DNA of 64,000 bases from assembly GCF_902809865.1 (NCBI RefSeq), contig NZ_CADDWH010000001.1:124001-188000 (forward strand). Reading direction: 5' to 3'. Positions 37,756-42,978 of the stretch are shown piece after piece (position 1 is the first letter of the stretch; each line of letters starts with the position of its first letter). This DNA comes from Halobacillus sp. Marseille-Q1614. Its GTDB lineage: Bacteria > Bacillota > Bacilli > Bacillales > Halobacillaceae. The notes beneath the pieces were generated by a model. The model did no database searches. It was not told where the DNA came from and saw nothing but the letters and a program-made list of their open reading frames with translations. The translations under genes were made by a program, and so were the position numbers.

Positions 37756-38436
37756 CTAATTATTCGGTTTTAATACAAATGAAATCACGCTGTTATCACG
37801 GGCGAAATCCCAGTCTACAAAAACATCCTGAACCGTGGCATCAAGAATCCTTGAAAATTGAGTGCTGTTCAGCAGCATTTCACCCTCCAGCTGCCTCTTT
37901 GCAACACGGAGCTTTTCATCAAAGCCCAGGGCGACCAGCTGCTTTTCAATAGGGACTAGAATTCCTTCACGAATGACCACTAATGATCGGTTGCTCAGCC
38001 TGTAAGACTCCACATGGTCCGGAACTTTCTCCGCTTCTTCACTGATGCGGATAATTTCCTTGTGGACTTCCTCTTTGCCGCGATAAGCCTCTGATGGTGC
38101 GGGGGTCTCGTAGCTGACACCGACAATTACTCCCGTTTGATTGGCGAGATTCCAATCATAATATATCTGCTGAATATCTAAATCTGTAATAGCTTTTATT
38201 TGTCCGCGTATTTCGGGTTCGAGAGATTTCATTACATACTCCCGAGTTGTTTTAACTGTAATATCCTGTTCTTGTTCTAAGAGAACCTGCTCTGTTGCAG
38301 ATACGAAACCACTTAAATAAATAACATACGGCGGGCAGATGGTAACGTGGATCGCTTGTGGACCTTTGCTGAATTTATCCCGCAGCAGTTTACCAAAATT
38401 ATTAGCAAGCTTCGTTTGCTGTTCTCTAATTTCCAT
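37756..38436 (-). CDS. tandem DUF2294-type protein
   Basis: 226 residues from the ATG at 38436; the frame reaches 38469 with two more ATG codons, and the start is not certain. Two similar halves each end in a D-W-x-x-A pattern (YYDWNLANQTGVIVGV and VDWDFARDNSVISFVL) and each contain a GKLLRDKFSKGP- or VALGFDEK-like opening. This is the duplicated DUF2294 layout. In Bacillaceae such proteins are common and have no confirmed function. Cytoplasmic, with its own terminator. Confidence 0.75.
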   Translation of the reverse strand: MEIREQQTKLANNFGKLLRDKFSKGPQAIHVTICPPYVIYLSGFVSATEQVLLEQEQDITVKTTREYVMKSLEPEIRGQIKAITDLDIQQIYYDWNLANQTGVIVGVSYETPAPSEAYRGKEEVHKEIIRISEEAEKVPDHVESYRLSNRSLVVIREGILVPIEKQLVALGFDEKLRVAKRQLEGEMLLNSTQFSRILDATVQDVFVDWDFARDNSVISFVLKPNN

Positions 38437-38682
38437 ATTGCGAAACATCCTTTTTATAAGAAGAAGCATCCTATCTTCTTCTCAAATATTATTTTAATAT
38501 TTATAAAATTCTATATTTATAAAATTCTATGTAAATACTTCAGTCTACTAAAATTTCTTTGATTATATTTTTCCCCAAATCGTAAGTAGAAAAACGTTTC
38601 TAGTTACTGTTTCGCTATAAAGTCCAATAAGCGCCGAAGGAAAGTATTGGTCTATTACAAAGAACTGATAAGGGAGGAAATC

Positions 38683-38850: not shown

Positions 38851-38878
38851 ATCCAAAAGCTGTTCCTGTACGTATGCT
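38851..38878 (+). promoter_or_regulatory. candidate ECF-sigma promoter, sigma gene
   Basis: ATCCAAAA (38851-38858), 11 bases, then ACGTATGCT (38870-38878). The same layout, ATCCAAAA-N11-ACGTTAGCT, occurs before the surface-protein gene at 40385. CGTA-type -10 elements are typical of ECF promoters, and the CATCC -35 resembles that of SigK regulons. It suggests that the sigma factor transcribes its own gene. Confidence 0.65.
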
Positions 38879-38952
38879 CTATAAATACGTGAAAGATTTC
38901 CTTTTTATAGATATACTAAGGAATACCAATGGCATAAAAAGGGGAATCCTGA

Positions 38953-39519
38953 ATGAGCAGATTGACGGACCTTGAACTATACGAACAAATATGCAACAAA
39001 GATAGAGAAGCACTGGAATTACTATATAATCGATATGAAAAATTATTATATTCTTTCGCTCATCGTCTATTAAAGGATCAGCAGGCCGCAGAAGAAGTGA
39101 TGCAGGATGTATTTATAAAACTGTGGAAAGGAAAGGGAGCGGGCCAGTACGTGAGTGAGCGCGGCAAATTTTCGAGCTGGCTTTTGACAATTACGAGGAA
39201 CGCTTCCATAGACTTGATGCGAAAAAAGAAAGTACAGGAAGTGGAATGGGACAGCCGGGATTCATTAAATGAAAATATGCCTGTTGTCGAAGAGGTAATC
39301 CAGGATGAAGAAGAGCGCGACCGCTTGAGAAAGGCGATAGATACACTTCCCGATCAACAGCAGCGGATAATTTGTCTGTTTTATTTTCAAGGTTTATCCC
39401 AGAGGGAGATTGCCGAAAAATGTGATATACCGCTTGGAACGGTCAAAGGGCGTGTTCGGCTCGCCTTAAAGAAGCTTCGTGAGCACCTGGAAGAGAAAGG
39501 GGGGACCACCGATGAATGA
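38953..39519 (+). CDS. ECF RNA polymerase sigma factor (SigK/RpoE-like)
   Basis: 188 residues. Region 2 (about 20-90) has LLYNRYEKLLYSFAHRLLKD and EVMQDVFIKLW; region 4 (about 125-180) has LPDQQQRIICLFYFQGLSQREIAEK. This is the full ECF layout without sigma-3. The start is ATG 38953 with AAAAGGGGAATCCTGA upstream. Its end overlaps the anti-sigma gene by eight bases, so both are coupled. Known SigK-RskA systems control surface and cell-envelope genes; the surface repeat gene downstream is the likely target here. Confidence 0.92.
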   Translation: MSRLTDLELYEQICNKDREALELLYNRYEKLLYSFAHRLLKDQQAAEEVMQDVFIKLWKGKGAGQYVSERGKFSSWLLTITRNASIDLMRKKKVQEVEWDSRDSLNENMPVVEEVIQDEEERDRLRKAIDTLPDQQQRIICLFYFQGLSQREIAEKCDIPLGTVKGRVRLALKKLREHLEEKGGTTDE

Positions 39520-40291
39520 GAAACAATGCGGGAAAGTGATTGATTATTTAAACGATCAGCTGATGGAAAAAGAGAGAAAAGAATTTGAAGAGCATTTGCG
39601 GGAGTGTCCCGACTGTCAGGAGGAACTTCAGGAACTGGAAGAGATTATGGGAGAATTCCCTTCTTATATGAAAGAAACAGTCCCCCCTTCCGGCATGAAG
39701 GAGCGAGTGCTTGATCGTGTATTTGAGGAAGAGGAAGAAAAGCCGGAGCAAGAGGAAGCTCGAGTCATAGCTCCTAAGCCTGCGCGCTGGAAGGTCTGGG
39801 CTGGAGCACTTGCAGCAGGGCTGCTGCTTTCCATCGGAGGAAATATATTCGCAGGACTGCAGCTGCAGCAGCTGTCTTCTCAAAACGATGAACTTGAAAC
39901 GACGCTGTCAGATCTCCAGGCGGCCCTTACTGAACTTGAGGATCGCGGTGGGACGGTGTCACCGCTGATGCAGGCCCAGCTTGCATCCACAGGAGAAGAA
40001 GGTCAGGGAATGGCTACTATGGTCGATCGAGAGGCAGGAGCTGAACTGCTTATTCAGGTAAATAACTTAAATCAGTTAGAAGGAGATCAAGTGTATCAAG
40101 TATGGCTGATCGAAGGAGAAAAACCTGAGCCGGCCGGAACTTTTACAACCAACCAGGAAGGTAACGGTGCAGTCACCTACCGTGTAGATGACGAGAATCT
40201 GAAATCATGGGATGCGATTGCGATTACAAAAGAACCTCATGCGAATAACCAGCTCCCTCAAGGAGAGATTGTCCTGCAGGCAGAATTGTAA
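39512..40291 (+). CDS. RskA-type anti-sigma factor
   Basis: 259 residues from ATG 39512, inside the end of the sigma gene. The N-terminal zinc-finger anti-sigma domain has HLRECPDC (zf-HC2). A linker, one membrane segment (about 92-109) and a coiled stretch follow. The extracellular RskA domain has ELLIQVNNLNQLEGDQVYQVWL and SWDAIAITKEPHANNQLP. The protein should hold the sigma factor at the membrane and release it after proteolysis on an envelope signal. A terminator follows. Confidence 0.92.
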   Translation: MNEKQCGKVIDYLNDQLMEKERKEFEEHLRECPDCQEELQELEEIMGEFPSYMKETVPPSGMKERVLDRVFEEEEEKPEQEEARVIAPKPARWKVWAGALAAGLLLSIGGNIFAGLQLQQLSSQNDELETTLSDLQAALTELEDRGGTVSPLMQAQLASTGEEGQGMATMVDREAGAELLIQVNNLNQLEGDQVYQVWLIEGEKPEPAGTFTTNQEGNGAVTYRVDDENLKSWDAIAITKEPHANNQLPQGEIVLQAEL

Positions 40292-40298
40292 GGAAATG

Positions 40299-40331
40299 AA
40301 GAGGCTGATAAAAAAATCAGCCTCTTTTTTT
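40299..40331 (+). terminator. terminator of the sigma/anti-sigma operon
   Basis: AAGAGGCTGAT (40299-40309) pairs with ATCAGCCTCTT (40316-40326), followed by T residues. Confidence 0.9.
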
Positions 40332-40384
40332 GTTGATAGAAAAGAGATTAAGCAATTTTTTGAAAATTTTTTTGTTTTTTTGTG

Positions 40385-40412
40385 ATCCAAAACAAAACTC
40401 CTCACGTTAGCT
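40385..40412 (+). promoter_or_regulatory. candidate ECF-sigma promoter, surface-protein gene
   Basis: ATCCAAAA (40385-40392), 11 bases, ACGTTAGCT (40404-40412). It matches the sigma-gene motif at 38851 in sequence and spacing and lies 35 bases before the start codon of the surface-protein gene. Confidence 0.68.
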
Positions 40413-40446
40413 TAGTGAAATTAATTTTAAGAGGAGTGGTTGGAAA

Positions 40447-41804
40447 ATGAAAAAACAAATGAACTGGAAGAAATCTTTGGTTGTAGTACCGATGTCCGCA
40501 GCTTTGATTTTACCGACAGCGACCCCGGCATTCGCAAATGATCATGGAAATCATAAGCAGGAAGTAAGTGTCTCTACACCAGCAGCCGATTTAAGGGCAG
40601 CACTTGATCAGTCCCTTTCCGAGCACGCCTACCTGGCCGTAGTTACAATGCAAAAAGGGATTGAAGGGGCGGAGGATTTTGAAGAAGCAGCCGCAGCGCT
40701 TGAAGGAAATACACAAGATTTAACGGCAGCGATCACGTCCGTTTATGGAGAAGAAGCGGGTGCTCAATTTGAGTCGATGTGGTCTGAACATATTGGATTT
40801 TTTGTTGATTACGTAACTGCAACGGCCGAAGACGATGAAGCCGGACGTGAAGAAGCCTTAAGCAATCTTGAAAATTATCGGGATGATTTCTCTGCATTCT
40901 TAGAAACAGCTACAGTGAGCGCCTTGACGCTTCTGCCTTAGCTGAAGGACTGCAAATGCACGTCGATCAGCTTGTTGGCGCGTTTGATAACTATGAAGAA
41001 GGCAATTTTGACGAAGCCTACCAGAATCTGCGTACAAGTATTGACCATATGTACGGAGTAGGGGAAAACTTGTCTGTAGCAATCACAGATCAGTTCCCAG
41101 AGAATTTTGAAAATACGAACCCTGATACACCAGCGGCAGACTTGCGTGCTGACTTAAACCACTTGCTTTCTGAGCATGCAGCACTGGCTGTTCTTGCGAT
41201 GCAAAAAGGGGGCGATGGTGCCGAAGACTTTGAAAATGCAGCAGGTGCGCTGAGCAATAATACTGAAGATCTGACAGCAGCCATCGCTTCTGTTTACGGT
41301 GAAGAAGCAGGATCTCAATTTGAAGAAATGTGGTCAGAGCATATCGGGTATTTCGTTGATTATGTGGAAGCAACAGGCGCTGGCGATGAAGCGGCAAAAG
41401 AAGAAGCCTTAAATAATCTTGATCAATATCGTACGACATTCTCAGAGTTCTTAGATACAGCGACTGAAGGCGGTCTGGAAGCTGAACAGACAGCAGAAGG
41501 TCTGCAAATGCACGTAGACCAGCTGACTGGATCATTTAACAGCTATTTAGAAGGTGACTTTGAAACTGCTTATAACCAGCTTCGTGAAGCTTATGCCCAC
41601 ATGTATGGCGTAGGTGAAGGACTATCTGGAGCGATCGTCGCTCAAAATCCGGATATGTTCGCTTCCAATATGCCATCTGAAATGCCGAAAACAGGTATGG
41701 GCGGGATGAGTGACCAAGGCGGAATGAACGCATGGGCGATTGCATTTGCAAGCATGGCAGCAGTTCTGCTGGCTGTATTTGGAATCCGCCGCAGCAAAGC
41801 ATAA
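40447..41804 (+). CDS. duplicated secreted surface protein with MPKTG anchor, frameshifted
   Basis: One gene in two frames. 40447-40941 encodes the signal peptide (about 1-30) and most of repeat 1; 40956-41804 encodes the rest. Two repeats of about 170 residues share ADLRA-L-SEHA-LAV--MQKG, GAEDFE-AA-AL, NT-DLTAAI-SVYGEEAG-QFE-MWSEHIG and AEGLQMHVDQL-G. One base is missing near 40914-40918; the codons after it still read ERLDASALAEGLQMHV. The C-terminus has MPKTG, a membrane segment and RRSKA, a variant sortase signal. Members are helical and acidic; the function is unknown. It has its own ECF-type promoter. Confidence 0.8.
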
Positions 41805-42014: not shown

Positions 42015-42090
42015 AATATCAGCTGCATAAGTACATTCCCCAATCATAAAGTATAGGATGAATTTATAATTTTTGAAGGGAATGAGGCAG

Positions 42091-42978
42091 ATGTTCAATT
42101 ACCCTAATATGTATCCAAATCCTTATGGAAACAACCCAATGTTTAACGGAGGCCAAGGAAACCACCAAGATCATCAGCAAGTGCTAAACGCTGTGCTCAC
42201 TAGTATCGAAGGGAAAGCGTCGGCTGTTGATTTTTACAGCCGATTAGCTGCTTTTGCGCCAAATCAAAAGCATAAGAGTGAACTTCTCCGTACGTTAGAA
42301 GAGGAAGAAGGACACTTAAAGCATTTTACGGACCTGTATGTCACACTTACCGGTAATCCGCCGATGTATGACCTGCAGCCAATCACATTTAATAGTTACA
42401 GTGAAGGATTACAGAAGGCATATGAAGCAGGCGTTCATAATTATGAAGAATATCGCGAAGGTTACGAACTTACGCAGCATTTACCTATTCGTGAAGTGTT
42501 CATGAGAGCTTGCAATGATGAGGTTGATCAAGTCGAGCGCTTAACTAAATTGTCATCAAATGAAGAACGCATTGATCTGGATGATTATGGGACACAGCCG
42601 TTTGTTGTGGATATTGAAGAAGCTTCTAAGCAAAATACTACGTTCAGAACAGCTATATGGACAGGAGATCATCTTCAGGTAACAGTAATGAGCATAGATG
42701 TTGGAGATGATATCGGTTTAGAAGTCCACCCAGACGTTGATCAATTTTTACGTATAGAAGAGGGAGAAGGATTGGTGCAGATGGGGGACAGTAAAGATCA
42801 ATTAGATTTTGAAGCTCCTGTGTATGATGACTATGCTATCATGGTTCCTGCTGGGAAATGGCATAACTTGACAAATACTGGAGATGAACCGCTGAAGCTT
42901 TACACTATTTATGCACCGCCTGAGCATCCGTTTGGTACGGTTCATGAAACAAAAGCTGATGCAATGGAAGCTGAATAA
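42091..42978 (+). CDS. ferritin-like/cupin fusion protein
   Basis: 295 residues from ATG 42091; TTG 42073 and ATG 42082 are in frame but worse placed relative to AAGGGAATGAGG. After an Asn/Pro-rich start (NYPNMYPNPYG), a ferritin-like four-helix domain covers about 30-165 with LEEEEGHLKHF and RACNDEVDQVERL as metal-ligand-like Glu/His. A cupin domain follows (about 180-285) with HPDVDQFLRIEEGEG and VPAGKWHNLTN, which carry the metal His/Glu. The pairing suggests a metal-dependent oxidoreductase or a Mn/Fe stress protein. The function is unknown. Confidence 0.82.
   Translation: MFNYPNMYPNPYGNNPMFNGGQGNHQDHQQVLNAVLTSIEGKASAVDFYSRLAAFAPNQKHKSELLRTLEEEEGHLKHFTDLYVTLTGNPPMYDLQPITFNSYSEGLQKAYEAGVHNYEEYREGYELTQHLPIREVFMRACNDEVDQVERLTKLSSNEERIDLDDYGTQPFVVDIEEASKQNTTFRTAIWTGDHLQVTVMSIDVGDDIGLEVHPDVDQFLRIEEGEGLVQMGDSKDQLDFEAPVYDDYAIMVPAGKWHNLTNTGDEPLKLYTIYAPPEHPFGTVHETKADAMEAE

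Follow-up and report, generated by a model that had tools for sequence, protein, structure and literature searches.

A candidate autoregulated ECF sigma/RskA-type anti-sigma switch for a surface-display system in Halobacillus and related Bacillales

In a stretch of 64,000 nucleotides (nt) from the genome of Halobacillus sp. Marseille-Q1614, analysed as a whole and called the window here, a gene for an extracytoplasmic function (ECF) sigma factor and a gene for a surface protein are preceded by closely similar pairs of short elements, which raises the question of whether the sigma factor directs transcription of both genes. As judged from sequence comparison, the locus very probably encodes an autoregulated ECF sigma/RskA-type anti-sigma switch for a surface-display system. 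In these salt-loving Bacillus relatives, the regulator of the switch appears to activate its own gene, a predicted helical surface protein and the likely anchoring enzyme. Motif, spacing, conservation, co-occurrence, gene order and the agreement between promoter base and sigma type are established by the observations given below.

The first predicted ECF promoter lies before the sigma operon at 38851..38878 (+) and matches exactly as ATCCAAAA-N11-ACGTATGCT, or ATCC-N16-CGTATGCT in its shorter form. The second lies before the surface gene at 40385..40412 (+) and is likewise exact, as ATCCAAAA-N11-ACGTTAGCT or ATCC-N16-CGTTAGCT; both motifs stand where the original prediction had placed them. 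Their -10 elements (CGTATGCT and CGTTAGCT) differ at two positions, and in relatives with the sigma type of the window CGTA is found in 17 of 17 distinct sigma sites and CGTT in 18 of 22 surface sites. With up to three mismatches, the window contains four pattern matches compared with 0.95 expected, a number reached in none of 100 shuffles. The genome-wide search that had been proposed as a check found the exact pattern only twice in 3.98 Mb, both times inside the window. At up to three mismatches the whole genome gave 53 matches compared with 47 for a reversed-pattern control, hence loose matches alone carry no weight. A relaxed form of the pattern, with at most one mismatch, gave 26 matches against 9 for the control, six of them exact: three are the sites described here (sigma gene, local surface gene and a surface paralogue), two fall within open reading frames (ORFs; L133 and L134) and one is intergenic (L003), with no convincing gene downstream in this genome. 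The patterns searched therefore yield no further target in this genome.

The sigma gene (38953..39519, +) encodes 188 amino acids (aa), with Asn at residue 83. Sigma70_r2 (residues 24-93) and r4_2 (123-175) both score above their cut-offs, are joined by a short linker and are the only domains found, as expected of an ECF (group IV) factor. An overlapping ORF (39512..40291, +) encodes the anti-sigma factor of 259 aa, with an N-terminal zf-HC2 domain (30.6 bits, above cut-off) and an RskA_C domain (73.9 bits, cut-off 29.4) behind a membrane-spanning stretch seen by eye; the model NF052375 scores 136.1 bits compared with a cut-off of 100. The predicted RskA-type control is in line with a co-encoded anti-sigma factor carrying both zf-HC2 and RskA_C, the latter being the domain that marks the SigK-RskA pair. 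SigK has a CATCC-like -35 element. Likeness to SigK, as originally proposed, holds for the RskA domain and the layout and fails for the sigma factor itself: it scores 125.7 bits on the curated SigK model NF007228, whose cut-off is 226, and assignment as SigK was dropped.

The third site of this genome lies 5' of an intact surface paralogue (443 aa, with an MPKTG signal) paired with a sortase gene (324 aa), from C1:3813559 onward. It is 3.65 Mb from the window locus along the contig; were the contig circular, the distance would be about 0.25 Mb. Given that this site precedes an unlinked paralogue-sortase pair, the predicted regulon has at least three sites and not two. It is therefore not self-contained, as it had been called, and four relatives furthermore carry the site before a free-standing sortase gene. 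The paired enzyme scores 93.7 bits for the sortase domain PF04203 (cut-off 26.6). The class F model NF033748 is the best of all sortase models, and its score of 144.1 bits lies below the cut-off of 166; an outright class F assignment was therefore dropped and the enzyme is labelled class-F-like.

The site was followed in a family set of 44 genomes, with relatives that include Halobacillus and Salimicrobium and with sigma orthologues taken at E 1e-30 or better. The form GATCC-N16-CGWTAGCT gave 87 matches compared with 4 for the reversed control. By place, 53 are before surface genes (52 assigned by script and one, G026:C30, overlapping the match start), 16 before sigma genes and 18 elsewhere. 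Allowing one changed base, the site was found 5' of all 37 sigma genes in 35 genomes (26 strict and 11 with the change), each time with a 16-base spacer, and it is this element upstream of the regulator's own gene that predicts autoregulation. Among the fetched surface genes (relatives plus the paralogue of this genome), 56 of 62 carry it. The spacer letters vary freely while its 16-base length and both ends are constant. Concerning the 18 sites elsewhere, seven are within long ORFs and 11 are outside or overlap only a 118-aa ORF on the opposite strand; four of these 11 precede sortase genes, and the rest include sites ahead of DoxX-like and YtkA-like genes and of small secreted or unnamed ORFs. 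In one genome each, the gene behind the site is DoxX-like (L159, G014) or resembles a lipoprotein with a YtkA domain (L162, G017); in two further cases (L168, G027; L171, G030) the site is followed by ORFs for small repeated peptides, with an ABC transporter downstream of them.

The genes also occur together. A sigma orthologue is present in 35 of the 44 family genomes, and the same 35, without exception, give a strong surface match; in the remaining nine the sigma gene is absent and surface matches are weak or missing. The class-F-like sortase is found in 33 of the 35 sigma-bearing genomes, compared with one of the nine others, and its distance downstream from a surface gene is at most 1 kb in 29 of the 35. 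The original prediction had itself raised the possibility that the motif occurs at random genome-wide and is absent before orthologues, and on both counts the results favour the motif. One genome (G028) has two sigma copies (L188 and L189; C2:1204724 and 1221917), about 17 kb apart and equally identical to the window sigma factor.

On a wider scale, a set of 80 named loci across Bacillales and an order-wide set of 120 genomes were examined. A strict site precedes the surface gene in 48 of the 80 loci; when spacers of 10-22 were allowed, 16 bases were found in 48 loci and 17 in two, with none at 10-15 or 18-22. In the 120 genomes ATCCA-N15-CGWTAGCT gave 85 matches compared with 25 for the control, of which 65 fall to the 39 genomes that possess a surface gene and 20 to the 81 that lack one. 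Outside the family, one genus has three genomes (G062, G105 and G138, "L062-type") with five to six sites apiece, which suggests a larger regulon there.

A further link between sigma factor and site comes from the third -10 base (CGT or CGA), which is the same in the sigma and surface promoters of one family genome in 59 of 59 pairs: 35 are A-A, 24 are T-T and none is mixed. The 50 named loci with a sigma gene, whose pairs overlap the family set, show 21 T-T and 8 A-A with none mixed, and in 21 a site is absent on at least one side. The A-type sites (n = 54) are all CGATAGCT, while the T-type sites (n = 39) are more varied. On the sigma tree, the A-type factors (27 rows) fall into a single group (support 99/96). 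Residue 83 is Tyr in 27 of 27 A-type factors; among 48 T-type factors it is Asn in 47 and His in one, and ten unlabelled factors have Asn (seven) or His (three) with surface promoters that read CGT by eye. One sigma gene split in two frames (L192, G015) still has T-type sigma and surface promoters. A complete separation of the types is also seen at positions 40 and 78 and in an unaligned C-terminal column, and residue 83 is singled out because of its structural counterpart, N88 of Mycobacterium tuberculosis SigH. Given that the type changed once on the sigma tree, the link between residue and base counts as one event at the sigma level.

In SigH, N88 bonds to base -10, which follows G-11; the N88A substitution lowers transcription, and the authors suggest that residue 88 may help determine specificity at that base (PMC6411747). 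The present W76, I80, N83 and I86 have the same spacing as W81, I85, N88 and I91 of SigH, and the base contacted by N88 is the position that varies here (PMC6411747). For SigH, an effect of residue 88 on specificity is only proposed (PMC6411747); in the present factors Tyr naturally accompanies A, and Asn or His accompanies T.

The history of the two types was compared with a tree of rpoB (40 genomes, 35 with sigma). Sigma type changes six times on the rpoB tree, at least four of them on supported branches, compared with once on the sigma tree, and both types are present within each of two large genera. The sigma locus therefore appears to have been exchanged between species. An approximately unbiased (AU) test on rpoB, made after the tree was seen, rejects a single clade of CGA genomes (p 2.4e-58). 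The promoter base of the unlinked paralogue matches the resident sigma factor in 22 of 22 genomes, a count that leaves out two extra paralogue copies and two paralogues without a site. This base changes four times on the rpoB tree, equal to sigma type; a rough figure for four promoter changes on the same four of 39 branches is 1 in 82251, given as illustration only since equal branches are assumed. On a plain reading, the sigma locus moved between species and promoters elsewhere changed at one base to fit. More specifically, it is an evenly balanced proposal that an Asn to Tyr change at residue 83, in the helix that reads the -10 element, shifted the preferred base after G-11 from T to A, and that the sigma locus was then exchanged several times, the unlinked target promoters being rewritten at that base each time.

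The same agreement between promoter base and sigma type would arise if whole pieces of the regulon had been transferred together, with no adaptation of promoters to a new sigma factor. Sigma gene, anti-sigma gene and first surface gene are near one another in many genomes and could move jointly. Furthermore, the independent pairs all agree and just three are well supported (four on the best tree), too few for the sign test to be significant (p 0.25). However, the paralogue genes group by genus (g1 and g3) in a way much like rpoB, yet their promoter base follows the sigma factor. We therefore regard joint transfer as the less likely explanation, and retain the exchange of the sigma locus followed by promoter change as described above.

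A more basic question is whether the ECF factor reads the site at all, since the shared element could be the operator of another DNA-binding regulator, or the promoter of another sigma factor, with the sigma/anti-sigma pair as a mere neighbour. Sigma and surface genes are indeed unlinked or on different contigs in four family genomes (G011, G016, G021 and G028), but these retain the site before both genes. Presence of the sigma gene agrees with that of the surface gene in 44 of 44 genomes, and two short elements at a fixed distance, with no palindrome, resemble a promoter. The -10 base moreover changes with sigma type in all 59 pairs, and does so at the base that SigH N88 contacts (PMC6411747). 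Control by another regulator is accordingly improbable. Weaker still, and very improbable, is functionless likeness inherited from duplicated upstream regions: homology among the surface paralogues and flanking letters common to close relatives would fit it, but the same site precedes the non-homologous sigma gene, four sortase genes and other unrelated genes, the spacer keeps its length and ends with free letters between, and the SLH-type paralogues L078, L079 and L080 are without it. These three have SLH-like tails (by Pfam for L079, by eye for L078 and L080) and no sortase signal.

The surface gene of the window extends over 40447-41804 in two different frames and is not a single ORF. Frame 1 (40447..40941, +; 164 aa) has a signal peptide and most of repeat 1 before a premature stop. 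Frame 2 (40956..41804, +; 282 aa) has the end of repeat 1, repeat 2, the MPKTG signal, a hydrophobic stretch and a basic tail. The apparent frameshift, real or introduced by the assembly, lies near 40915, where one base is missing compared with three relatives and with the gene's own second repeat. The MPKTG motif itself (41682..41696, +), read from the sequence, corresponds to MP[KDE]TG by eye in relatives, and pentapeptide, hydrophobic stretch and basic C-terminal tail together make up a sortase-substrate signal. In the other 34 of the 35 strong-match family genomes, the best surface match lies in a frame that is open over 445-511 aa. One of the 34 (G001) has a stop inside its surface match, and a genome without the sigma gene and without a full-length surface gene (G032) retains a fragment of 42 aa with 74% identity to the surface protein (L082; C10:1177989-1178114), which looks like loss of the system. 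The surface protein has no Pfam or NCBIfam family reaching its cut-off, GVDTG_CTERM of NCBIfam scoring 19.5 bits against 29. Relatives have two repeats with four histidines per repeat invariant in 12 sequences, and a structure model of the Halobacillus litoralis relative predicts nothing but helices of note.

Several observations weigh against the proposed switch or narrow it. The local surface gene is broken in the present assembly, as read from its sequence, and since the frameshift precedes the sorting signal, the claim of a wall-anchored repeat protein as main product is unsupported for this genome. The score of the sortase falls short of class F. Six of the 62 surface genes in the family are without a site, among them the three SLH-type paralogues and one gene whose product bears an MPETG signal (L077); a strict site before the surface gene is absent from 32 of the 80 named loci. 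In 14 of the 50 named loci with a sigma gene, five of which are Salinicoccus, a search over 200 nt from the sigma start gave no site, so that autoregulation is unsupported there. Finally, the counts are not independent because the genomes are related. The idea of an autoregulated sigma factor with a shared promoter layout and a surface-protein target is supported by comparison across relatives, without its self-contained character and its local main product.

From these patterns we infer transcription, signal, release mechanism and anchoring as follows. Weak sigmaA-driven expression would keep a small pool of sigma factor, held by the membrane anti-sigma factor. A sigmaA-like candidate, GTGAAA-N17-TATACT (38889..38917, +), lies downstream of the ECF site and ahead of the sigma start; it matches the consensus at 9 of 12 positions, which is weak evidence alone given that the scan gave 10 such sites compared with 5.1 expected, and a similar site is visible by eye upstream in relatives. 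A signal on the outer RskA_C domain would then free the sigma factor, by analogy with SigK-RskA (PMC7509140). With RNA polymerase, it would read ATCC-N16-CG[T/A] before its own operon, resulting in amplification, and before genes for secreted, predicted all-helical two-repeat MPxTG proteins. The class-F-like sortase, mostly paired with a surface gene, would attach the MPxTG protein. The targets predicted for this genome comprise the sigma operon, the local surface gene with its frameshift, and the intact surface gene with its sortase.

Other features surround these genes. A terminator-like hairpin (40298..40327, +), with a 12-pair stem and a T tail, lies between the anti-sigma and surface genes, ahead of the surface promoter, and adds to the case for the switch. 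No sortase gene was found 3' of the local surface gene in this genome; the gene there (42088-42975) encodes a cupin domain, and its N-terminal part gives a weak rubrerythrin-like match. An MpsC-domain gene (PF10057) lies upstream of the sigma operon, at 37756-38469 on the opposite strand.

Two look-alike sites thus become a defined, order-wide candidate regulon, in which a sigma switch would be dedicated to a surface-protein family unnamed by Pfam or NCBIfam and to its likely sortase. The locus also offers an evolutionary test of the published structural suggestion that the residue corresponding to N88 of SigH contributes to the choice of base at promoter position -10. Both residue/base states are available in sister species and, given that promoter letters throughout the set change along with the regulator, the DNA-reading rule of the sigma factor is directly testable at a single residue and a single base. 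A literature search, limited to open-licence work, found none joining an ECF sigma factor and a class F sortase; the excerpts of that literature on Halobacillus and ECF sigma factors give CorE-like counts in Halobacillus and no mention of the present system.

The closest known kind is SigK-RskA with mpt83/mpt70 of M. tuberculosis. There, surface antigens are the targets, and a SigK binding site is conserved in the mpt83-sigK-rskA cassette, which is itself conserved and also described in Yersinia (PMC7509140). As there, an ECF sigma factor is co-encoded here with an RskA-domain anti-sigma factor (PMC7509140). Unlike SigK, the present factor does not reach the curated SigK model; the anti-sigma factor carries zf-HC2, and the targets differ in being a predicted all-helical MPxTG protein outside named families, with a sortase. 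The SigK-RskA pair furthermore has a redox-active cysteine pair in its sigma factor (PMC8103513). The two-domain ECF factor also resembles SigW and SigX of Bacillus subtilis, SigW (5wuq) being the third-best solved relative of the window sigma factor. The targets of SigW and of SigX are distinguished by the -10 nucleotides alone (PMC8103513). In contrast to both, the targets are different here, and the -35 element differs from that of SigW (ATTGAAACCTTT; PMC8103513). On a large scale, ECF promoters have been predicted from the residues that contact DNA, the same principle as here, with about 55% of ECF factors reported as autoregulated (PMC8103513, its reference 50). Autoregulation of an ECF factor with an anti-sigma factor is an ordinary principle; the new features would be a regulon devoted to surface display, its conserved promoter, and a joint change of sigma factor and promoter.

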